Positions 8,128-62,189 of a DNA stretch of 64,000 nucleotides are shown piece after piece. The notes below the pieces were generated by a model. The model made no database searches and was not told where the DNA came from. It saw only the letters and a program-made list of their open reading frames with translations. This DNA is from Sinosporangium siamense. Its GTDB lineage: Bacteria; Actinomycetota; Actinomycetes; Streptosporangiales; Streptosporangiaceae. Numbering within the stretch: the stretch's first letter is position 1; every line of letters begins with the position of its first letter. The stretch is from NCBI RefSeq assembly GCF_016863435.1, contig NZ_BOOW01000037.1, forward strand, positions 1-64,000, read 5' to 3'. The position numbers were made by a program, and so were the translations under genes.

Positions 8128-8898
8128 GTTGTTGGCGGTGGTGACCACCGGGAACTGCGCGTCGATGCGGTTGTACTGCTGCTGGGCCGACTCGAAGGCG
8201 GTGGGCTCCACGGCGCTGGCGCCGCTGTAGGGATGGCTGATCATCTGGATGAAGACGATGCCAAACAACACCACGGTCATCCGGACGACGTCGCCGACAA
8301 CCGACGCACCTGAGGGTTTCGCACCGTTGAACCATGGAAGTGCGATGACGAACATTCCGGATAGGAGCATGGCCACCACGAAGATGCTTTCCAAGTGGGT
8401 GCCGGCGTCTTCGGCGCGGATGGTGCGGGCGTGGCTGACCTGGGAGGCCAGGGAAAGGGCGTCCTTGTGGAGGTCGCGCATGTCCTCTTGCTTGGGGCTG
8501 AGGCGGAGCAGCGACGCGCGGAGGCCTTCCAGCGTGGTGTCGGGCACGGGGGAGAGCTTGTCCTCGGGCATCAGGGGCCAGTCGAGGGTGATGCTCTGCG
8601 AGGTGTACGTCTTGATCTGGTTTCTGATCTCACCCGAGCCGGGTATGGGCGCGACCGTCCAGTAGAGCTCGGTAAGGGTTTCGGCCTCGGCGGTGGCGTC
8701 GGTGCTGGCGGCGGTGATGGCGTCGCGGCAGAGTACGGCGGCGTAGGCGAGGACGAGAAGGTATACGGCCAATGCCAGGTTTGCGGCGAAATCCAGGGCG
8801 ATGGGACCGTGTTCATGGTTATCTGCGCCTTTTCGCCGCAAAATCAGAAGTACGATGAGCAGTACGGCAACAGCCACTCCGATGGTTAGCGCGATCAA
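8125..8898 (-). CDS. DUF4239 (bestrophin-like) membrane protein, 257 aa
   Basis: TTG 8898 is chosen because GAGGAGGGACCACGG gives an ideal ribosome site; longer reading to 8979 lacks one. Membrane segments are visible at the extreme N-terminus (LIALTIGVAVAVLLIVLLIL), at about residues 42-60 (ALDFAANLALAVYLLVLAYA) and as two near the C-terminus (IFVVAMLLSGMFVIALPWF; VVRMTVVLFGIVFIQM). The long middle loop is soluble and helical (DLHKDALSLASQVSHARTIR). This topology and the terminal HPYSGA motif fit the DUF4239 family, distantly related to bestrophin channels. Substrate and role are unknown. It converges with the binding-protein-like gene. Confidence 0.7.
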   Translation of the reverse strand: MIALTIGVAVAVLLIVLLILRRKGADNHEHGPIALDFAANLALAVYLLVLAYAAVLCRDAITAASTDATAEAETLTELYWTVAPIPGSGEIRNQIKTYTSQSITLDWPLMPEDKLSPVPDTTLEGLRASLLRLSPKQEDMRDLHKDALSLASQVSHARTIRAEDAGTHLESIFVVAMLLSGMFVIALPWFNGAKPSGASVVGDVVRMTVVLFGIVFIQMISHPYSGASAVEPTAFESAQQQYNRIDAQFPVVTTANN

Positions 8899-9430
8899 CC
8901 GTGGTCCCTCCTCAGTTTGTTCATCACTGAGAGTAAGGGGACGGCGCGCCACACACGAGCTTTCCACCGTGTTTCCCAAAGAAATCCAGCTCTGAGTGGA
9001 AATTGTTACACACCGCCCGCTAGCCGATCAGGCACATGCGGCCACCAAAGCTTGATATATGGGGCTTTCAGATAATTTTTCGGGTCATATGGTGACAAGT
9101 CGGCTGGCGTCCGACCCGGCGGGGCGCCGCCGAGGAGCTGCGGCTTCGCCGCGGGACGACGAGCCGCCCTGCGACGCGATACCCCGACAAATCCCAATCT
9201 TTCCTACGAGCTGCCGCTTAATGCGCAAGCGCGGGCATAAATAACCACGCTCCTCACATAGCCAAGACAAGCACCCGAATCTACCACCGCAAAGAGTGAC
9301 GCGCCGAGCCAAAAATAAAGGCTCAGTCACGTATCCGCTCCATGATTGCCGACATCATGTAAAGACTCCCACCAGACAGGGATCATCCACGCGAAATCGT
9401 GGGATTGAACGTCTTGGCGGAAGGGCACCC
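8899..9430. other. Intergenic region, no gene seen
   Basis: About 530 bp between two divergent genes. It is less GC-rich than the coding regions (for example 9040-9095 and 9295-9370) and contains no frame with convincing codon use. It should hold the promoters of both flanking genes. Confidence 0.5.
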
Positions 9431-18862: not shown

Positions 18863-19756
18863 TCAGTACGGCAGGCCGGGCCGATCACTCGTGGCCTGGC
18901 CGGCGATCCCCCTCTGAAGCCCCAGCACTGCCTGGGCGATCTGCTCAGGCTGCTCGGCGACCATGTTGTGGCCGGCGGCCAGTTCGAGCACCTGCAGATG
19001 CGGCCGGTGGGCGGTGACGGCCAGCAGATCCCGGCGGATTCCCGCACGCAGCGCCTGCATGAGCTCGCCGACTCGGCCCGGCATGCCAGGCAGATCCCGC
19101 GTGGCTAGGACAAACAGGGCGGGACACTGGATATCGGCCACCGCCGCGACGCTGTCCTGGAAGTACGCGTCGTACCTGATCTGCCCGGCCAGCGCGGCGT
19201 CCGGACGCAAATACACGCCCTCGTCCGTGGTGCGCAGTGCACGCTGGGGATACATCACGGCGTGGGCCTCGGGCAGTGGCCGCGCCATCGCCTCGGCCTG
19301 GGCGTCGAAGACGGCCTTCATCTCCGCCAGTAGCGCGGTCAGTTCCTCTTGCCCGATGCCGGCGTAGTGCCGCGGCGAGGTCTCGGCCGAGCGCAGCCCG
19401 TCGAGGTTGACGATCCCGGGACCGCCAGGATGACGCAGCGCCCACCGCACCGCGACCATGCCGCCGAGGGAGTGTCCCACCACGAGGGGAGTGTCCAGGC
19501 CGAGGTGGTCGACGACCGCCTCTATGTCGTCGAGCACCGCCTCCCATTCCCACGCCCCGTCGCCGGACAACCCGTGGCCGCGCAGGTCCATGGAGACGAC
19601 CTGGTGCGCGCCGGTAAGCAGCGGCGCGACCGCGTCCCAGTGCTGAAGGGTGCCGCCCAGGCCGTGGAGCAGCAGCACAGGAGTCCCTTGGCCCCCATGA
19701 TCGCGGACTGCCAGGTGGACGGGACGGTTGTCAATGAGGAGATCGTGCGGTGCCAC
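18863..19756 (-). CDS. Alpha/beta hydrolase, 297 aa
   Basis: GTG 19756 has AGGAGAGCACCC before it and overlaps the upstream regulator gene by 26 nt. The fold signatures are clear: LLLHGLGGTLQHW (oxyanion loop), VSMDLRGHGLSGDG, the nucleophile elbow VVGHSLGGMVA (Ser), FVLATRDLPG (acid region) and ELAAGHNMVAEQP (catalytic His). The lid between about 150 and 220 is helical. Substrate cannot be read from sequence. Coupling to an HTH protein suggests inducible control by its substrate or by the HTH partner. Confidence 0.85.
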   Translation of the reverse strand: MAPHDLLIDNRPVHLAVRDHGGQGTPVLLLHGLGGTLQHWDAVAPLLTGAHQVVSMDLRGHGLSGDGAWEWEAVLDDIEAVVDHLGLDTPLVVGHSLGGMVAVRWALRHPGGPGIVNLDGLRSAETSPRHYAGIGQEELTALLAEMKAVFDAQAEAMARPLPEAHAVMYPQRALRTTDEGVYLRPDAALAGQIRYDAYFQDSVAAVADIQCPALFVLATRDLPGMPGRVGELMQALRAGIRRDLLAVTAHRPHLQVLELAAGHNMVAEQPEQIAQAVLGLQRGIAGQATSDRPGLPY

Positions 19757-52852: not shown

Positions 52853-54235
52853 TTAGCGGCAGATCGCGTCGAGCGGCACGGGATCGTGCGGGTCGGCCGC
52901 CGTGCCGGGGGACCTCCGCACACCGCGGTCGGTCAGGGCGACGGCGACCTTGTCCTTGATCAGGTAGTAGTCGGGCTCGCCGGTGTTGATCAGCGGCGGC
53001 ACGAACTGAAGGCTCTTGATCTTGGCCTCCTTGACCCGCTGTGCCAGATCCACCAGGCCCGGCAGGAACTCCTGCGGCAGGTCGGTGGAGATCGCCCCCT
53101 TCGCCGCCCGGGCGAGCTCATCGAAACTCCGCAGCACGGTCAGCGGGTCGGCCTGCCTCACCATCGCGTTGATCAGGCACTTTTGCCGCCCCATCCGCAC
53201 ATAGTCGTCGCTGTATGTGCGGGACCTTCCGTACCAGAGCGCCTGCTCGCCCGACAGCCTGCGTGTGCCCGTCGCGATCAGACCCTCGTTGTGGCGGCCG
53301 TAGATGATCTGCTCCTTGATCGTGACGGTGACGCCGCCCATCGCATCGATGATCCGGGCGAACCCCTTCATATCGATCATCGCGTAGTAGTCGACCGTCA
53401 GACCGAGGATGCCGGCGACGGTGCTCTTGAGGAGCGTCGGCCCGCGCTTGCCGTTGGGCACCCCCGGCACCATGTCCGGGTGGTCCTCGGCGTATTGGTA
53501 GACCTCGTTCAGCAACCCGGGGGTGTGCGTGCCCTCACCCGTGAAGCCGAACGGGAACCACTCGCGCGCGGGCCCCGGCGGCATGGGGACGTTCTGCAGG
53601 TTTCGCGGCAGTCCGAAAAGCACCGTGTGCCCGTTGTGGGGGTCGATGCTGGCCACAGTGATGCTGTCGGTGCGCACGCCGTAACGGCTCGGCGCGGAGT
53701 CCGCGCCGATCAGCAGCAGGTTGACACGCTCGGTGCCCTCCCAGGGGTCGGCCGTGCTCCCGACGGGCACGCCGGGGTTGAAGAGCGAGGTCACAAGGTC
53801 GCGGGACACGTAAGCGAGGTGCGCGCCGTAGGCCAGCGGCGCGAGCACCGCGAGGCAGAGCACTGCGGTCAGCACCACCGCCGAGCCCCGGGCGAACCAC
53901 TTGCGCGCCGGCGGGCGCACGAGCTGGTAGGAGCGGACGATGACCGCGATCCAGATCAACGCGATCACGATCAGCGCGACCATCAGCACGATGAGCCAGC
54001 GCGGCTGCACGATCAAGGTCAGCAGGTTTGAGCGGAACACCGTGATCACCGTGAGGACGACGGCGTTCAGCCCGAGGAACAGCGCCATAAGCGCTAATCC
54101 CACTTTATTGCGACCCACCCAAAGATGAGCGAAGCCCCAGAGCAGAGCCGACCCCAGCGTGAGCGCGAAGCTCGCCGCGAAGCCGTGACCTTCGCCGTTA
54201 TCCCTCATCTCCGAGTCGCTACCTCCGGTCAGCAC
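52853..54235 (-). CDS. LytR-CpsA-Psr (LCP) family protein, 460 aa
   Basis: LCP enzymes attach glycopolymers to peptidoglycan at the outer face of the membrane. Four N-terminal hydrophobic segments (to about residue 150) precede the domain. Conserved blocks are RVNLLLIGADSAPSRYGVRT, DSITVASIDPHNGHTVLFGL, PRNLQNVPMP (phosphate-binding Arg), YYAMIDMKGFARIIDAMGGV and LWYGRSRTYSDDYVRMGRQK. The start is GTG 54235; ATG 54208 is possible. It lies downstream of the ole-like operon on the same strand, separated by 76 bp that look like a fresh promoter region. Confidence 0.9.
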   Translation of the reverse strand: MLTGGSDSEMRDNGEGHGFAASFALTLGSALLWGFAHLWVGRNKVGLALMALFLGLNAVVLTVITVFRSNLLTLIVQPRWLIVLMVALIVIALIWIAVIVRSYQLVRPPARKWFARGSAVVLTAVLCLAVLAPLAYGAHLAYVSRDLVTSLFNPGVPVGSTADPWEGTERVNLLLIGADSAPSRYGVRTDSITVASIDPHNGHTVLFGLPRNLQNVPMPPGPAREWFPFGFTGEGTHTPGLLNEVYQYAEDHPDMVPGVPNGKRGPTLLKSTVAGILGLTVDYYAMIDMKGFARIIDAMGGVTVTIKEQIIYGRHNEGLIATGTRRLSGEQALWYGRSRTYSDDYVRMGRQKCLINAMVRQADPLTVLRSFDELARAAKGAISTDLPQEFLPGLVDLAQRVKEAKIKSLQFVPPLINTGEPDYYLIKDKVAVALTDRGVRRSPGTAADPHDPVPLDAICR

Positions 54236-54311: not shown

Positions 54312-55259
54312 CTACCAGTCGGCCGCCCCGAGAAAAGATGTGGGCTCGGGCTTAAATCCAAGATCTCGCCGTGCGGCGGAAATATCCAGGGTGCGCTCCA
54401 CCGCCAGATGCCCCACCGCATATCGCGTCAACCGCGGCGGACGAGTGGTTCCGAGCCGCTCACACACCGCCTCCACCACTCCGGCCAGCGGCTCCACCAC
54501 CCGCGCCGGCAGATAGTACGGCCTGGCCCGCACACCCCGCTCCCGCAATATGGCCCGGAGCGCCTCGTCCAGCGTGATCGGATCGGCGTCGGTCACGTTG
54601 TAGACCCCGCGGTCCACCGGCCCCGACGCCGCCAGCAGACATGCGCTCACCAGGTTGTCCACCGAGGTCAGGCTGATCCGCTGGCGTCCGCTCCCCACCG
54701 CGGGCAACCACCGGCCCCGCACCGCGCCGAGCACCCGGGGCAGCAGGGTCGTGTCGCCTTTGCCGTACACCGCGTGAGGTCGCAGCACGATGCCCCGGCC
54801 GATCACGAGCTGCTCGGCCCGCGCTTTCGAGGCGCCATAAGCGTTGACATAACGCCGCACCGGCGCGGCGTCCTCCCGCGCCATCACGGTGGGCCGGAAC
54901 GGATCGTAGACACTCGCCGTGCTCACATGCACGAACCGCGCTCCGGGGAAGGCCGCGAGCACCGCGCGGGTGCCGTGCACATTCGCCGCCCAGATGTGGT
55001 GCGGCGGCCCCCAGTCGGTCACGCTCCCCGCACAGTGGACCACCGCGTCCACCCGCGGCAACCCGCGCGGACGCGCGCCCAGCAGATCCCACGAGCGGTA
55101 CGGTGCCCCGCCCACATGGCCGCCCACATGGCCGCCCGCCGGGCCGTCCGTGGGCGACGCGCGGCGGCCGAAGGGGTGCACCGTCCATCCCGCCTCCACC
55201 GCGGCCCGGCACACCGCGCCCCCCACAAACCCCGACGCCCCGGTCACCGCGATCCTCAT
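54312..55259 (-). CDS. Extended SDR, OleD-like NADPH-dependent 2-alkyl-3-oxoacid reductase, 315 aa
   Basis: RIAVTGASGFVGGAVCRAAV is the Rossmann motif; VHVSTASVYDPF and YGASKARAEQLV hold the catalytic Ser and the Y-x-x-x-K pair. The block following it, RGIVLRPHAVYGKGDTTLLP then RISLTSVDNLVSACLLAA, is characteristic of the 3-beta-HSD/OleD subgroup (compare R-P-R-x-I-W-G-P-G-D-N-x-L-L-P). OleD reduces the beta-ketoacid made by OleA to the beta-hydroxy acid. ATG 55259 overlaps the ligase stop (ATGA). Last gene of the operon. An unrelated sugar epimerase is possible but less likely in this context. Confidence 0.75.
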   Translation of the reverse strand: MRIAVTGASGFVGGAVCRAAVEAGWTVHPFGRRASPTDGPAGGHVGGHVGGAPYRSWDLLGARPRGLPRVDAVVHCAGSVTDWGPPHHIWAANVHGTRAVLAAFPGARFVHVSTASVYDPFRPTVMAREDAAPVRRYVNAYGASKARAEQLVIGRGIVLRPHAVYGKGDTTLLPRVLGAVRGRWLPAVGSGRQRISLTSVDNLVSACLLAASGPVDRGVYNVTDADPITLDEALRAILRERGVRARPYYLPARVVEPLAGVVEAVCERLGTTRPPRLTRYAVGHLAVERTLDISAARRDLGFKPEPTSFLGAADW

Positions 55260-56728
55260 CGCGCCACCTCCGCGCGAAGCGCGGCACGGTCGAGCTTGTC
55301 GGTGCGGCCGGCGCGCGGCAGCGCGGTCAGCACCTCGACCCGGTCGGGCAGCGCCCAGGCGTCCACGACCTCGGGGAGGGCGGCCAGCACATGCGCCACG
55401 TCGAGTGCGGGGGAGTCAGGCACCAGGGCGAGGACGACCTCCTCGTCCCCGGTCTCGGGGTCGGCGAGACCGACGATCGCGGCCTCGGCGACGTCGGGGA
55501 GGGCGGCGACGGCCGGCTCATACAGGCCTGGATAAATGTTCACACCGTTGCGCAGAATCATGTCCTTTTTTCGGCCTAGCAGGATAAGTCGTCCGTCGTC
55601 GTCAATAAAGCCTAAATCTCCGGTCGCGACCTCGGTGAGGGGGTCGCCCCCGAGATAACCCTGAGCGAGATTCGGCCCCGACACAAAGAACTCCCCGTCC
55701 TCCGCCACCCTCACGTTCACCATCGGCTTTCCCAGCGAACCGGGATTGTCGAGTTTCTCCTGAGCCGTAGTGATCGCAATGGGAAGTGCCTCGGTCATGG
55801 CATAAACGGAGAGCACAGTGGCCTCCGGCGCGGCGGCCAGCGCCCGGCGCAACACCGCGGGCGGCGCCGGAGCCGCCCCCAAGAGCAGATAACGCAAGGT
55901 GCCCGGCAGATCCGGCGTCTCCCGCAGAATCCTGTCCAGCCGGACCGGCACACAGAACGCGTGCGTCGCCCCCCGCTCCGCCAGTTCGGCGGCGAGCGGC
56001 CCGCCACCGGGCAACGACCACGCCGCCCCGGCCAGCAGCGCGGGCAACCCCAGCATCAGCTGATCGGTGTGCACCACGTCCCCTGGCTCGATCGGTACGG
56101 CACCGCCGAACAGGCCGACCCCCGCCGTCAACGACGCCCGCGTGTGCACCACCCCGCGCGGCAGCCCGGTCGTGCCCGAGGTGAAGATGACCACGGCAGG
56201 CGTATCCCCCGTGACCGGATCAAGCCCCCGTCCCGGAACACCGCCCCCGTAGACGCGGGCCAGGCTGAACGCCCCCCGCGGCACCCCGGGCAACCACGGT
56301 CCCGCCCGCAGGTGTCGCACCCGGTGGCCGGGCGCGGGATCGGCGAGGCGGGGGAGCAGCAGGCCGCGGCGGCGGGCGACGCCACGCAGGGGGCCGCTCA
56401 GCGTGTAGAGCAGCGACTCGGCCACCACCCACGCGGGGCGGGTCAAGGCGATCCGCCCGGCGAACACACCGGGCGCGACTCCGGGGTCGGCCAGCACCAG
56501 CGTCCGGCCCGCCAGCACCGCCCCGAGGGCCGTGGCCACCGCATCGGGGCCTGGCCGTACCGCGAACAACACGGCCCCCTCCTCCCCGCCGGACAGAGCG
56601 GCGGCGACGGAGAGCACACGTGTGCGCAGATCGCCATAGGTGAGGGCACGGCCGCGGCCGTCGCGGATCGCGACGCGCGAGGGATGGCGGGCGGCGGTCT
56701 CAAGGATGCCGGTGACGAGATCGTTCAA
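55256..56728 (-). CDS. AMP-dependent ligase, OleC-like beta-lactone synthetase or acyl-CoA ligase, 490 aa
   Basis: TTG 56728 is preceded by GGGAAAG and is the best start (no ATG/GTG fits). Adenylating motifs are clear: IFTSGTTGLPRGVVHTR (183-200), VYAMTEALPI, VATGDLGFIDDDGRLILLGR and KKDMILRNGVNIYPG, and a C-terminal lysine in GRTDKLDRAAL. In the ole context the enzyme would adenylate the beta-hydroxy acid and close a beta-lactone, as OleC does. The C-terminal D-K-L-D-R motif also fits ordinary acyl-CoA ligases, so this remains open. 40-bp gap to the P450 upstream, 4-nt overlap with the reductase downstream. Confidence 0.7.
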   Translation of the reverse strand: MNDLVTGILETAARHPSRVAIRDGRGRALTYGDLRTRVLSVAAALSGGEEGAVLFAVRPGPDAVATALGAVLAGRTLVLADPGVAPGVFAGRIALTRPAWVVAESLLYTLSGPLRGVARRRGLLLPRLADPAPGHRVRHLRAGPWLPGVPRGAFSLARVYGGGVPGRGLDPVTGDTPAVVIFTSGTTGLPRGVVHTRASLTAGVGLFGGAVPIEPGDVVHTDQLMLGLPALLAGAAWSLPGGGPLAAELAERGATHAFCVPVRLDRILRETPDLPGTLRYLLLGAAPAPPAVLRRALAAAPEATVLSVYAMTEALPIAITTAQEKLDNPGSLGKPMVNVRVAEDGEFFVSGPNLAQGYLGGDPLTEVATGDLGFIDDDGRLILLGRKKDMILRNGVNIYPGLYEPAVAALPDVAEAAIVGLADPETGDEEVVLALVPDSPALDVAHVLAALPEVVDAWALPDRVEVLTALPRAGRTDKLDRAALRAEVAR

Positions 56729-56768
56729 CGGTCTTTCCCGTTCGGGGTCGGGCAAGGGGTCGGCCGGC

Positions 56769-57908
56769 TCATGGTTCCTTCCGGATCCACAGTTCGCGGT
56801 AGGCGGGGATGAGCACCCGGCGAGCCGCACGTCGCCGTACGACACGCACGGCCGGGTCGGCCACCACGTCGGCGATGGCGCGGATCTCGGCCATGGCGAG
56901 CGGATAGCCGATGCAGAAGTGCGGCCCGGCGCCGAACCAGAGGCGCCGCAGCTCGGGCGGATGGACGAAGTCCGGGTCGAAGGGGCCGTGAGCGCGGGTG
57001 CAGGTGTGGGTGACGATGACGACCCGGTCGCCTGGCCGCACCCGCACCCCGCCCACCTCGGCGGGCGCCGACACCGACCGGAGCATGACCGGGGTCGGGG
57101 TGGTGACCCGCATGGCCTCGTCGACCAGCCTGTCGTCGACGGAGGGAGAGGAGGCAGCTCGTGCCCGATGGTCGTGCAGCAGCGCCACCAGCCGGGGCAC
57201 GAAGGTCGCGACCGTCTCGGTGCCGGTGAGGAAGAACGCCCCCGCGGCCCCCCGGGCCTCGTCCGCGGAAAGGCCGAGCGCCCGCATGCGCCCGGTGACG
57301 GTGCTCTCGTCGCCCGCCGTATACGCGGCTTCCGCGATGTCGCCGATGCCGGACAACACGCGCCGCGCGACCACCACCTGCCGGGGGGACAACCGCCGCG
57401 ACCGCAGCGACACCATGGACACGACCCGCTCCCCGGCCTCGAACAACTCGCGCGCCCGCACCGGTGTGACCTCGCCCAGCCCGATGACTCGGCAGATGAC
57501 CGCCCCGGCCATGACGCGTACGGCGTCGGCCAGCTCGACGAGCTCCCCGCGGTCGAGCCGGGCCCTGAGGTCGTCCAGCGGGCCTTTGAGCACCTCGGCG
57601 ACGAGCCTGCCGACATAGCCGGGGGTGAACAACGAGGACAGCCGCGCCCGGAGCTCGGCGTGCGCGGGTCCCTCCATGTTGAGCAGGACCGAAGGGCCGA
57701 GCACGGGGGTCCACAGATCGCCCGGAGACCCCGGGCCGTCCTTGCGGAAGCGCGGGTCCATGAGCACCGAGCGGGCGGTCGCGGCGTCGTTCACCACCAC
57801 CCCGACGCCGGGCAGCCGCACCACGGGGCCGCACATGGCGAGCAGCCGCAGGAGCGGGTAGACGATCGGGTGGGCGGCGAGGTAGAGCCGCGTCTCGTGG
57901 TCGATCAA
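56769..57908 (-). CDS. Cytochrome P450, 379 aa
   Basis: The start is TTG 57908, whose TTGA overlaps the glycosyltransferase stop; no better start exists. P450 signatures: I-helix AGAFFLTGTETVATF (Thr230-Glu231-Thr232), K-helix ExxR in VDEAMRV (Glu264, Arg267), RP(V)M-like MLRSVSAPAEVGG and the heme loop FGAGPHFCIGYPLAM (axial Cys332). It is short for the superfamily, as bacterial class I P450s often are. Being inside the ole-like operon, it probably hydroxylates or oxidises the acyl product or precursor. No ferredoxin gene is adjacent. Confidence 0.9.
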   Translation of the reverse strand: MIDHETRLYLAAHPIVYPLLRLLAMCGPVVRLPGVGVVVNDAATARSVLMDPRFRKDGPGSPGDLWTPVLGPSVLLNMEGPAHAELRARLSSLFTPGYVGRLVAEVLKGPLDDLRARLDRGELVELADAVRVMAGAVICRVIGLGEVTPVRARELFEAGERVVSMVSLRSRRLSPRQVVVARRVLSGIGDIAEAAYTAGDESTVTGRMRALGLSADEARGAAGAFFLTGTETVATFVPRLVALLHDHRARAASSPSVDDRLVDEAMRVTTPTPVMLRSVSAPAEVGGVRVRPGDRVVIVTHTCTRAHGPFDPDFVHPPELRRLWFGAGPHFCIGYPLAMAEIRAIADVVADPAVRVVRRRAARRVLIPAYRELWIRKEP

Positions 57909-58660
57909 CGGACGTCGACCACCTCGGGGCGGTAGTGGTGGTCCATGTACCACGCCAGTGTGCCGATCAGGCCGTATGCGCGCAGCCGCCGCACAGAGCC
58001 GTAGACGACGACGTCGCGGCGGGAGCCGTACGCTCCGGTGAGGCGCCGCACCTTGTTGACGAGCGCGCGGTCCTCGTGCACCTCTTCGATCGCGGTCCTC
58101 GGGAACCCGCCGCACCGCTGATAGAGCGCGGCCGTGATGGCGAGGGTGGCCCCCGGCATCATCACGTAGGGTCCGCGGAACTCCGGATCGCGGTTGCCCG
58201 GCCGCAGTTTGCCGAAAAACGCCGCCGTCTCCACCACAAGGGGGATGAACCGCCGCTCCCAGAACTTCAGCTTGAACTGGTCGGTGCGCGGCCGGAGTTT
58301 GCCGCCGATCAGCTCCAGGCCGTCGGCGAAGGCCCTGCGGATGTTGCGCGTCCAGTCGGCGCGAGGCAGGCAGTCGGCGTCTGTCCTGGCCAGGTGGGTC
58401 GCGCCGCGGGCGATGGCGTGGCGGACGCCGGTGTCGGACGCGGCGCCGGTGCCCTTGCGCGACTCCTCGATCACCTCGATGCGCAGGGACGAGGTCTTCG
58501 CGTAGTCCCGCACCACTTGAGCGGTGCCGTCTGTGCTGACGTTGTCGACCACGACGACGGTGAAGTCCCGGTCGAGCTGCGCCTCAAGCGCGCGGAGCGT
58601 GCCGGCGACGCCGTTCGCCTCGTTGTAGGCCGGGATCACCACCCAGAGGTTCATCGTCAC
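57905..58660 (-). CDS. Glycosyltransferase family 2, 251 aa
   Basis: GTG 58660 overlaps the upstream thiolase stop (GTGA). The GT-A fold motifs are LWVVIPAYNEANGVAGTLRA, VVVVDNVSTDGTAQVVRDY and the D-x-D-type HLARTDADCLPRADW, followed by EVHEDRALVNKV (the catalytic E-D region). The C-terminus is basic and amphipathic (GLIGTLAWYMDHHYRP), suitable for membrane contact, but there is no true transmembrane segment. In this operon it may glycosylate the lipid made by the thiolase/ligase/reductase enzymes; donor unknown. Confidence 0.85.
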   Translation of the reverse strand: MTMNLWVVIPAYNEANGVAGTLRALEAQLDRDFTVVVVDNVSTDGTAQVVRDYAKTSSLRIEVIEESRKGTGAASDTGVRHAIARGATHLARTDADCLPRADWTRNIRRAFADGLELIGGKLRPRTDQFKLKFWERRFIPLVVETAAFFGKLRPGNRDPEFRGPYVMMPGATLAITAALYQRCGGFPRTAIEEVHEDRALVNKVRRLTGAYGSRRDVVVYGSVRRLRAYGLIGTLAWYMDHHYRPEVVDVR

Positions 58661-59625
58661 ATCTCCGCCAACATGATGCCGAGGCTGATGCCGCCGCCGA
58701 GCCCCAGCATGGCCACGCGGTCGCCGGGCCGCCAGTCGCCCGCCGTCAACTGGAGCGGCAACGTTGCCGAGGCGCAGTTGCCGTGCTCCGGCAGCGTGAC
58801 GACCAGCCTCTCCTCGGGGATGCCGAGCGCCCCCGCCAGCACCGAGAGGTACGGCAGAGCCACCTGATGCACCGCCACAACCGCGAAGTCGTCCCAGCTC
58901 AGCCCGGTCCGCTTGAGCGCGTTGAGGAAGATGTCGGGCCCGGCCAGCTCGAACGCCTCCTTCAGCCTGCGCCCGTCGCCGCGGAAGTAGGAGAACTCGG
59001 GGTCACGGGGATGTGCAGAACCGCCACCCGGGAGCGTGCCAATCGCCCATGCAGTCGATTCGGCCGAGAAGTCACGGTAAAAGATGCCGCGCCGGGGGTC
59101 GGCGGTCACCAACATCGCCGCCCCCGCGTCCGACAGCGTGTAGCCCGCGAACGCGTCCACGAACTGCCGGCGGTCCGCGACCCGCCACCGCACCGCCCGC
59201 GACGGCATCTCGCCGGTGCACACCACCACCCTGCGGTGCGCCCCCGTCGCGATCAGCGCCTCGGCCACCTGTAACCCGTTGAGCACACTGTTGCACGCGT
59301 TCTTCACGTCGAACACCGGGCACGCCACCCCGAGCTTGGCCGCCACGATGTGGGCCGTGGCGGGCTCCACCATGTCCTGGGAGGCGGACGCGAAGATCAG
59401 CAGATCGGCGTCGGCGGGGTCGAACCCGTCGAGCCGCCGCACGGCCTCCACCGCCAGGTCGGACGCCTGCTGATCGTCCCGGGCCACGTGCCGCCGCCGG
59501 ATGCCGGTCATCCGCTCGACGATGCCGGGGTTCGGCTTGTAGCCCTCGATCCGGAGCTCAACCTCGCGACTTGTCACCGTCTGTTCGGGCAGGTAAGAAG
59601 CCACGCCCGATATCTTCGCTTTCAT
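58657..59625 (-). CDS. OleA-like thiolase (non-decarboxylative Claisen condensation), 322 aa
   Basis: ATG 59625 is the preferred start; a TTG at 59655 is possible. The thiolase triad is Cys111 (DVKNACNSVLNGL), His253 (VVAVHQVALPYL) and Asn283 (LPEHGNCASATLP). FabH-type enzymes share this, but the segment LIFASASQDMVEPATAHIVA carries Glu87 at the position equivalent to the catalytic base Glu117 of Xanthomonas OleA (24 residues before the Cys here, 26 there). FabH proteins lack this Glu. RRRHVARDDQQASDLAVEA is also OleA-like. The inferred reaction joins two acyl-CoAs to a 2-alkyl-3-ketoacid. First gene of the operon. Confidence 0.78.
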   Translation of the reverse strand: MKAKISGVASYLPEQTVTSREVELRIEGYKPNPGIVERMTGIRRRHVARDDQQASDLAVEAVRRLDGFDPADADLLIFASASQDMVEPATAHIVAAKLGVACPVFDVKNACNSVLNGLQVAEALIATGAHRRVVVCTGEMPSRAVRWRVADRRQFVDAFAGYTLSDAGAAMLVTADPRRGIFYRDFSAESTAWAIGTLPGGGSAHPRDPEFSYFRGDGRRLKEAFELAGPDIFLNALKRTGLSWDDFAVVAVHQVALPYLSVLAGALGIPEERLVVTLPEHGNCASATLPLQLTAGDWRPGDRVAMLGLGGGISLGIMLAEM

Positions 59626-59694: not shown

Positions 59695-60363
59695 TCACGG
59701 CCCCGGCAGCAACCCCGCGTCGTGGGCGAGGATGGCGGCCTGCACGCGGTTCGCGCAGTCGAGCTTGGTGAGGATCCTGCTCACATGCGCCTTCACGGTG
59801 CTCTCCCCCAGGAAGAGTTCCTTGCTGATCTCCACGTTGGACAACCCGGCCCCCAGCTTGACCAGCACGTCCCGCTCACGCTCGGTCAACGTCGTCAACC
59901 GCCGCGACGCCTGCGCGGCCCGCCCGTCGTCCGCCATGACGTATTGATCGATGATCTGCCGCGTGATGCGCGGCGACAGGATCGACTGGCCCCCCGCCGC
60001 CGTCCGCACCGCCTGGATCAGCTCCTCCGGCCCGGTGTCCTTGAGCAGAAACCCCGCGGCCCCCGCCCGCAGCGCCCGCGCCACGTAGTCCTCCTCGCCG
60101 AACGTCGTCAGCATCACGACCTGCACCTGCGGCGACACCCGCGCCATCTCCGCCACCGCCGCCAGGCCGTCCATCCCCGGCATACGGATGTCCATCAAGG
60201 CCACGTCGATGTTGTGCCTGCGGGTCATCTCCACCGCCTCGGACCCGTTTCCGGCCTCGGCGACGACCTCGATGTCGTCGGCGTGGCGGAGGATCAGCTT
60301 CACCCCCGCCCGCAGCAGGGACTCGTCGTCGACGAGAAGCACTCGGATCGCCATGTCAGTCAT
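59695..60363 (-). CDS. NarL/LuxR-family response regulator, 222 aa
   Basis: ATG 60363 (MTDMAIRV) or ATG 60354 begins the receiver domain: VLLVDDESLLRAGVKLIL, phosphoacceptor Asp58 in ALMDIRMPGMDG, and Lys in FLLKDTGPEE. The output domain is a LuxR helix-turn-helix: LTERERDVLVKLGAGLSNVE and LFLGESTVKAHVSRILTKLD. It is encoded 17 bp after its kinase, the typical NarL-type pair. It points toward, and may control, the ole-like operon immediately downstream. Confidence 0.93.
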   Translation of the reverse strand: MTDMAIRVLLVDDESLLRAGVKLILRHADDIEVVAEAGNGSEAVEMTRRHNIDVALMDIRMPGMDGLAAVAEMARVSPQVQVVMLTTFGEEDYVARALRAGAAGFLLKDTGPEELIQAVRTAAGGQSILSPRITRQIIDQYVMADDGRAAQASRRLTTLTERERDVLVKLGAGLSNVEISKELFLGESTVKAHVSRILTKLDCANRVQAAILAHDAGLLPGP

Positions 60364-60380
60364 CGTCCTCAAGTAGTAAA

Positions 60381-62006
60381 TCAATCCCGCGCATACACCC
60401 GGAGGGCCTTCTTCTCCGCCAGATAGCCGTCCCTGAAGCAGTAGCGGTGGACCTCGATCGGGATATCGGTATAAAGCGTGCCGGTGAAGATATAGCTGCA
60501 CGTGGTGCCCGCGGGGCGCGGCGGCTCGACGTGCCGCACCGCGAGCTCGCTGATCAGCTCCGACGAGCCCGCCACGCCGCGCACCGCGCCCTCCGTCATG
60601 CCCACCTCGATCGGCTGGGTCCGCCCCGGCAGCGGCACATAGATCAAAGTGCCCAGCAGCAGCACCGCGACGGAGAACAGCCCCGCCCCCTTCAACGCCG
60701 CCATCGCAGTGCGCGTCCCCAGGGTCTCCTGCCGCTCCGCCGGAGGCTGCTCAGGCGGCTCCGGCCGCGGCCGCTCGGCCAGCGGCAACGTCGCGCGTAC
60801 GGCGAAGCCCCCCGAAGCCGTGCGATCGGCGCTGAACGTGCCCCCGAGCAGCCTCACCCGCTCACGCAGCCCGATCAGCCCCTTGCCTGTGCCCTGCCCT
60901 CCAAGCCCGCCGCCCGGACCGCCGGCCTGGCCGCCACCTGCCGCGTGCGGGCCGTTGGCCACGGTGACGCGGACGGTGTCGGCGGCGCGGCCGACGTCGA
61001 TCTGGACGGCGGCGCCGGGGGCGTATCTGTGGACGTTGGTCAGCGACTCCTGCACCACGCGGTGCAGCGCCGCCCGGACCGCCGACTCGACGCCGGCGAG
61101 GTCCTCGCCCGACCAGGTCAGGGTCGCGGCGATGCCCGCCGCGGTCGACTCGCCCACCAGCCTGCGCATGTCGGCGCGGGTGCCGGTGGCGTCGGTGATC
61201 TCGGTGGGCCCGGCCGGATCGGCGCGGCGGTCGCCCGGGTCGCCGCGCAGGATCCCGAGCACGGTGCGCAGCTCCTGCATCGCGGTCTGCGCGGTGTTCC
61301 TGATCAGCTTGACCTGCGGAGTGTTCTCCCTGGCCTCAAGCTCAAGGCCGCCGGCGTAGAGCGAGATCAGGCTGAGCCTGTGGCCCAGCACGTCGTGCAT
61401 CTCCCTGGCCACCCGCGAACGCTCCTGCAACCTGGCCTCGGAGGCGGCGAGCGTGGAGCGTTCCCGCAACGTCACGAGGAGCTGCTCACGCTGCTCAAGC
61501 AGGATGGCGACCATGGCGGGCACCACGACGCACACCACGGCCGCGATGACGAGCACGGCCACCGTGCGGCGCCAGTCGTACAACTGCCGGTCGGCCAGCG
61601 CGGTGAGCGCCGGCAGCAGCGTGGCCGCGGCGAGCACGGGCAGGCGGAGCCTCGGCCGCACCACCCCGGCCGCGTTGTAGGCGAGCGCGGCCACCGCCAC
61701 GCCCATCTCCAGGTGGCGGCTGAACACCACCGCCGCCGCCAGGAGCGTGAGGATCGGGAACCTCCCGCGCAGCAGCACGAGCACGGCGCCGGTGCCGGCG
61801 ACCATGAGCATCGTCGGCGTGTCCTCCGCCGCGGTGTTCGTCACCCAGGCCAGCCACTCCATCGTCTCGGTCATCAACAGGGTGAGCACCACGATCAGCA
61901 GCACTAGCCCGATCTCACCGGCCAGCCGGGCCCACCCGCGGTTCCCGCCGGAACCGGAGCGCTGCGGAAGCTCCCCGGCGCTCCGCATCCATCCGAAAAC
62001 CTTCAC
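60381..62006 (-). CDS. NarL-type sensor histidine kinase with unusual C-terminal extracellular domain, 541 aa
   Basis: GTG 62006 or ATG 61988 starts the protein. Five or six hydrophobic segments fill the first 170 residues (GLVLLIVVLTLLMTETMEWL and others). The phosphoacceptor helix is SRVAREMHDVLGHRLSLISL (HisKA_3), and the ATPase has GKGLIGLRERVRLLGG. After the kinase a Pro/Glu linker leads to a further hydrophobic segment (AMAALKGAGLFSVAVLLLGT) and an extracytoplasmic domain of about 75 residues with two Cys (GTTCSYIFTG, HRYCFRDGYL), preceded by VGMTEGAVRGVAG, faintly like BamE/SmpA-type modules. This fused domain is not usual in such kinases and may sense an external signal. Confidence 0.88.
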   Translation of the reverse strand: MKVFGWMRSAGELPQRSGSGGNRGWARLAGEIGLVLLIVVLTLLMTETMEWLAWVTNTAAEDTPTMLMVAGTGAVLVLLRGRFPILTLLAAAVVFSRHLEMGVAVAALAYNAAGVVRPRLRLPVLAAATLLPALTALADRQLYDWRRTVAVLVIAAVVCVVVPAMVAILLEQREQLLVTLRERSTLAASEARLQERSRVAREMHDVLGHRLSLISLYAGGLELEARENTPQVKLIRNTAQTAMQELRTVLGILRGDPGDRRADPAGPTEITDATGTRADMRRLVGESTAAGIAATLTWSGEDLAGVESAVRAALHRVVQESLTNVHRYAPGAAVQIDVGRAADTVRVTVANGPHAAGGGQAGGPGGGLGGQGTGKGLIGLRERVRLLGGTFSADRTASGGFAVRATLPLAERPRPEPPEQPPAERQETLGTRTAMAALKGAGLFSVAVLLLGTLIYVPLPGRTQPIEVGMTEGAVRGVAGSSELISELAVRHVEPPRPAGTTCSYIFTGTLYTDIPIEVHRYCFRDGYLAEKKALRVYARD

Positions 62007-62189
62007 CCGTCTATCGTCGGTCCTGGTCAGGGGTGATTGAGCCCGCCACCCGGACAGGGGGCACCCCACTTTCGTCCTGCTATTACCGGCCGAAGGGAGG
62101 AGACCTGCGGTGAGTCGCGGGAACCGAGCGTTGTGCCCGCCCGTTTCTCTCTGCGATCACTCGATTCCATGTGCAGCAGAAAGGCCGCT

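Follow-up and report, generated by a model that had tools for sequence, protein, structure and literature searches.

What is made by a run of five genes in Sinosporangium siamense that recalls the OleA, OleC and OleD enzymes of olefin formation and holds a cytochrome P450 (P450) and a glycosyltransferase as well? The run lies on the minus strand, from 59625 to 54312, of the first 64,000 nucleotides of contig NZ_BOOW01000037.1 (assembly GCF_016863435.1), a stretch referred to here as the window. It encodes, in this order, a thiolase, a family 2 glycosyltransferase (GT2), a P450, an adenosine monophosphate (AMP)-forming ligase and a reductase of the short-chain dehydrogenase/reductase (SDR) type. 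An original prediction had read the run as an OleA/OleC/OleD operon lacking OleB, possibly directed to an undescribed lipid beta-lactone. We confirmed that the block is real and conserved, that the idea has already been published and that the label OleC fails three tests. The product class that we infer is an oxidised, glycosylated, branched hydroxy acid lipid.

All five enzyme classes passed their Pfam cut-offs, and the gene calls reproduced the predicted genes, coordinates, overlaps and gap. The thiolase gene (58657–59625, 322 residues) is followed by the GT2 gene (57905–58660), whose GTG start at 58660 forms a GTGA overlap with the stop of the thiolase gene; an alternative ATG start is found at 58654, and the protein has 249–251 residues depending on the start chosen. 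The P450 gene (56769–57908, 379 residues) begins with TTG within a TTGA overlap, the ligase gene (55256–56728, 490 residues) begins with TTG after a 40-bp gap behind the P450 stop, and the reductase gene (54312–55259, 315 residues) is joined to the ligase gene by an ATGA overlap. In the homologous locus of the nearest relative, Sinosporangium album (L055), comparison by eye revealed a TTGA overlap between P450 and ligase genes and the identical TTG start of the ligase, which makes the 40-bp gap look like a local insertion. Relative to S. album, again by eye, about 44 inserted bases at 56728–56772 seem to account for a new stop of the P450 gene and for the gap before the ligase gene, and they leave a 15-codon ATG frame that is joined by ATGA and TTGA overlaps.

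Homologues were picked by their likeness to the window's own proteins. A scan of named genomes with the thiolase as query yielded 132 confirmed loci, of which the best 80 were kept. The comparison across relatives that the original prediction had proposed found the exact order retained, complete and on one strand, in 71 of these best 80 loci. Short overlaps of 4 to 1 bases recurred among the 71 at the GT2/P450 (66), ligase/reductase (55), thiolase/GT2 (49) and P450/ligase (43) junctions. Because the order is kept on one strand and the overlaps recur, the block goes beyond chance; it is widespread among soil-dwelling actinobacteria and strictly kept. Among the remaining loci, L042, L108 and L116 have no reductase and end 2.8 to 3.9 kb past the thiolase, the ligase is inverted in L066, four Nonomuraea loci comprise only thiolase, P450 and reductase, and L080, from a metagenome-assembled genome, is a broken block. 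For the 71 loci, the median identity to the window protein was 69% (thiolase), 66% (GT2), 68% (P450), 57% (ligase) and 66% (reductase). Genera with confirmed thiolase loci include Streptosporangium, Planobispora, Actinomadura, Catellatospora, Lentzea, Saccharopolyspora, Pseudonocardia, Catenulispora, Streptomyces, Actinotalea and Antribacter. When 394 genomes of the class were sampled, 33, the window's own included, had a thiolase match at E <= 1e-40 with all cluster types pooled; among 60 relatives, 19 had a match at E <= 1e-20, about half of these at only 30–35% identity.

Three cluster types can be told apart. Type A has the order of the window. In type B the order is thiolase-GT2-ligase-P450-reductase, as on the Streptomyces viridifaciens plasmid pKVP2 (L024) and in L189–L196; variants lack the reductase (L194) or carry two GT2s (L201). 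Type C, found in ten loci (L025, L026, L036, L200, L202–L206 and L211), consists of thiolase, ligase and reductase, and no match to GT2 or P450 was obtained in the fetched loci. OleC motifs are present in the ligases of all ten, and each of the ten has an OleB match of at least 216 bits; one of the three OleB queries was taken from L036 itself, whose OleB also matches another OleB at 53%. Such oleABCD clusters, including those of the Nonomuraea type, share an OleA subfamily and an OleD-like reductase with the block, whereas the block has a different ligase and, in addition, GT2 and P450. In one genome, G028, a type A block coexists with a type C cluster.

The thiolase (Pfam ACP_syn_III and ACP_syn_III_C) has a Cys-His-Asn triad at Cys111, His253 and Asn283. 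We aligned 131 thiolases, namely the window, the 10 of type C, 11 references from ole clusters and 109 others; as in the ligase, reductase and P450 alignments below, duplicate or near-identical genomes are included. The Cys occurs in all 131 rows and the His and Asn in 130, the sole exception being a cut remnant (L037). The Glu-Pro signature of OleA, Glu87-Pro88 in the window, is likewise present in all 131. The signature Glu is absent from E. coli FabH and from 12 of 16 control loci; it occurs in three OleA-resembling controls, two inside the OleA set and one on a long branch beside it, and one control could not be aligned. In the thiolase tree (all trees were quick, unrooted and without bootstrap; some support values are starred), the FabH set stands apart at 100 (starred); a second set, at 99 (starred), unites types A, B and C and includes the window, with type C thiolases placed among those of type A (89, not starred). 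The window thiolase is about 30% identical to E. coli FabH and 31–33% identical to the OleAs of four ole clusters outside its subfamily. The nearest non-block relatives compared, two type C thiolases from clusters with OleC, OleD and OleB, reach 44–46%. Triad, signature and a position outside the FabH set thus support the assignment as an OleA-type thiolase, as had been proposed, with a predicted activity in acyl-CoA condensation. A housekeeping FabH, the grouping the original prediction had named as telling against it, is ruled out by the Glu-Pro motif and the tree.

The ligase (Pfam AMP-binding and AMP-binding_C) did not bear out its original label. With the OleC model NF045786, all four OleC proteins scanned gave 331–496 bits; this profile scan took three of the ten type C ligases, and the motif comparison took all ten. 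In whole genomes real OleCs reached 518 and 496 bits, and in G028 the block ligase scored 58 bits, whereas the OleC also encoded there scored 518. The window ligase is absent from the NF045786 matches of its own genome at E <= 1e-12, the best of which, at 103 bits, is another gene. The high score with NF045786 or NF045785 that marks OleC was therefore not found for the block ligase. A D-x-R-H-x-[SA]-K motif in the A10 stretch occurs in 21 of 21 OleC rows and in none of 100 block ligase rows (among the latter is L080, an unrelated ligase beside the broken block). At the hinge, whose residues we take to have functional roles, His or Glu is found in 21 of 21 OleCs, and Asp in all 100 block ligases and in 8 of 11 control ligases. 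The block ligases do keep the A10 lysine, and in most rows the A10 stretch ends in K-[LI]-D-R or K-P-D-R, as it does in many OleCs. In the ligase tree the 21 OleCs (99, starred), the block ligases (100, starred) and the controls (95, starred) form three sides. Because these sides are separate, the block ligase is, as judged from sequence, neither OleC nor one of the 11 tested acyl-CoA (coenzyme A) and related ligases. Profile, motifs and tree together rule out OleC; placement among the CoA ligases, against which the original prediction had been hedged, did not occur with those tested either.

These data bear on an arrangement in which the ligase acts first, converting a free fatty acid into the CoA ester used by the thiolase, so that the product would be a branched hydroxy acid or ketone, glycosylated and oxidised, and no beta-lactone. 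An Asp hinge is usual in acyl-CoA ligases, and the best model of the window ligase, the long-chain-fatty-acid-CoA ligase PRK06187 (151 bits), points the same way. This score is, however, far below the curated cut-off of 476, and none of the 11 acyl-CoA and related ligases tested groups with the block ligase; we consider this arrangement rather unlikely.

No OleB is encoded in the operon, as originally stated, and the genome-wide check found nothing above background: the best hydrolase of the window's own genome gave 75 bits at 30% identity, comparable to unrelated hydrolases of G142. The hydrolase at 18863–19756, which the original prediction had rightly set aside, matches only generic alpha/beta hydrolase models, none of which names OleB, and is ruled out as OleB. 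An OleB match above 70 bits was obtained in none of 96 loci with thiolase and GT2. The block-bearing genome G031 contains a hydrolase of 106 bits and 35% identity; since a real OleB in G158 scores little more, at 113 bits, absence of OleB is less sure in G031.

For the reductase (Pfam Epimerase; YxxxK and a glycine motif), OleD (NF042422) was the best model at 122 bits, with a cut-off of 580, and the best non-OleD model reached 65 bits. Tyr and Lys of YxxxK are kept in 114 of 115 rows. Type A reductases (99, starred), type B reductases (99, starred) and type C reductases plus OleD (98, starred) form separate sets in a tree with poor controls, one of which, own_L235, is read in the wrong frame (branch 9.67) and is given no weight. 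With OleD as nearest model and the SDR motifs in place, the proposed OleD-like reductase was upheld, probably as an outlying enzyme beside rather than within the OleD set. The P450 (Pfam p450) has its haem ligand at Cys332, an I-helix TGTET and an ExxR motif, and all 101 rows compared retain the haem Cys. Its conservation rules out a haem-less glycosyltransferase activator (TIGR04515, 41 bits). Five type B P450s inspected have no acidic residue in the I-helix pair, whereas type A has one. The GT2 (Pfam Glycos_transf_2) has a DAD motif within a conserved ARTDADC. To our knowledge, neither a P450 nor a GT2 is part of the clusters for lipstatin and nocardiolactone.

In several genomes the block is split. 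All four Nonomuraea have the ligase elsewhere in the genome (56–61% identity); GT2 was not found in them at E <= 1e-25 in a search that had no positive control. The idea of a joint loss of ligase and GT2 in Nonomuraea, which would argue against coupling, was dropped, as the ligase was found in four of four. In two of two genomes of another genus, thiolase, GT2 and ligase lie at one site; a different site holds the P450 and reductase, which are 67–71% identical, along with a second P450. The persistence of separated parts in genomes with a split block speaks for a single pathway.

A cluster with the same domains has been described by Smith et al. 2020 (PMC7064751). These authors list OleA, glycosyltransferase, OleC, P450 and OleD for a region of Actinoplanes atraurantiacus, with no oleB in the genome; the predicted product, reached by condensation, reduction, hydroxylation, glycosylation and ring closure, is a hydroxylated, glycosylated beta-lactone. 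By domain content, on which the likeness rests, this region has the five classes of the window, no oleB and the same proposed chemistry; its listed order is that of type B, whereas the window is of type A. Judging from the type B ligases, its ligase would likewise not be OleC. The idea of a product of this kind, originally thought not to have been described, is hence already in print: architecture and product prediction are both given, and no product is shown (PMC7064751). According to the same authors, the Glu117 followed by Pro is common to all but two of the OleAs treated, the A. atraurantiacus OleA was positive in a p-nitrophenyl hexanoate screen, and the lipstatin and nocardiolactone clusters, as described there, resemble the block in having OleA, AMP-ligase and OleD classes without OleB. 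In the open-access literature searched, no later work on the A. atraurantiacus-type cluster and no product for the block were found.

A hydroxylated, glycosylated beta-lactone would also be reached in the window if the ligase, though not OleC by descent, adenylated the 3-hydroxy acid and the hydroxyl closed the ring. The same enzyme classes, the lack of OleB, the published prediction for a cluster of equal domain content (PMC7064751) and the OleC-like end of the A10 stretch with its lysine are in keeping with this. Set against it are the profile, motif and tree results and the Asp hinge of 100 of 100 block rows versus His or Glu in 21 of 21 OleCs, and we regard a beta-lactone as possible but doubtful. 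Should the ligase turn out not to be a beta-lactone synthetase, the structure predicted in print for clusters of this type would have the wrong reactive core; should it turn out to be one, its lineage would escape mining with OleC models.

We favour, with confidence that goes no further than an even balance, an OleA/OleD-type pathway in which a separate ligase lineage provides activation and which leads to an alpha-branched 3-hydroxy acid lipid, oxidised and usually glycosylated. Substrates, order of steps and products are proposed as follows. Cys111 of the thiolase would be acylated; a second acyl thioester, deprotonated by Glu87 of the partner subunit as in Xanthomonas campestris OleA, would then give a 2-alkyl-3-oxo acid. 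The OleD-like reductase would convert the ketone to the 2-alkyl-3-hydroxy acid, and the ligase would adenylate a carboxylate, most likely that of this acid. The P450 may hydroxylate one of the alkyl chains and the GT2 attach a sugar to a hydroxyl group, so that the end product would be the lipid named above or an activated or cyclised form of it.

Several observations weigh against this pathway. The thiolase scored 157 bits with a FabH-like model versus 142 with an OleA-like one, and in a search with the thiolase OleA was outranked by FabHs of the PDB. The pyrone synthase PpyS has a similar Glu as well. In G409, G473, G587 and G595, which carry related blocks, no close reductase was found (best 34–37% identity); this argues against a strict dependence among the parts, and the reduction step may not be general. 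Moreover, the A. atraurantiacus OleA, a scarce and precipitating protein, condensed none of the acyl-CoAs tested (C8–C16), according to PMC7064751. This unreactivity, along with the 31–33% identity to OleAs outside the subfamily, would suit a thiolase that, like pyrone or quinolone enzymes, joins another acyl pair instead of two fatty chains, with the ligase loading a special acid. We consider this improbable, as the nearest non-block relatives (44–46%) sit with OleC, OleD and OleB. On the favoured OleA/OleD-type pathway, one may tentatively envisage that, across Actinomycetota, a single OleA subfamily feeds two pathways, one to olefins with OleC and OleB and the other to undescribed oxidised glycolipids with the block ligase, P450 and GT2, the ligase having evolved separately in OleC's place.

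The surroundings of the block were inspected as well. Directly upstream on the same strand, at 59695–62069, are genes that we take from the sequence to encode a response regulator and a sensor kinase; the pair was not found by tblastn at the block of the close relative S. album. In 29 of the best 80 named loci (e.g. L068, L093, L112), the block is flanked by a second P450 gene, placed divergently just upstream of it, or else downstream. This P450 is 30–45% identical to the block P450 and has the haem motif in 29 of 29; in G574 and G466, where the block is split, it accompanies the relocated P450 and reductase, and none was found in the window's own genome at E <= 1e-30. The region of the relocated ligase is alike in the four Nonomuraea; in the locus inspected (L159, 5463–10666), genes for Acetyltransf_6, ATP-grasp and phosphoglucomutase proteins are located upstream and ABC transporters on the other side. 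After the reductase, at 52853–54235 on the same strand, is a gene that presumably encodes a LytR-CpsA-Psr-like protein, a name given on reading the sequence. Among 72 loci that extend far enough, 25 have a homologue with more than 45% identity no further than 3.5 kb downstream. In the remnant L037 (G012, 8443–9200), the thiolase is reduced to its first half and the reductase to fragments, beside such a LytR-CpsA-Psr-like gene.

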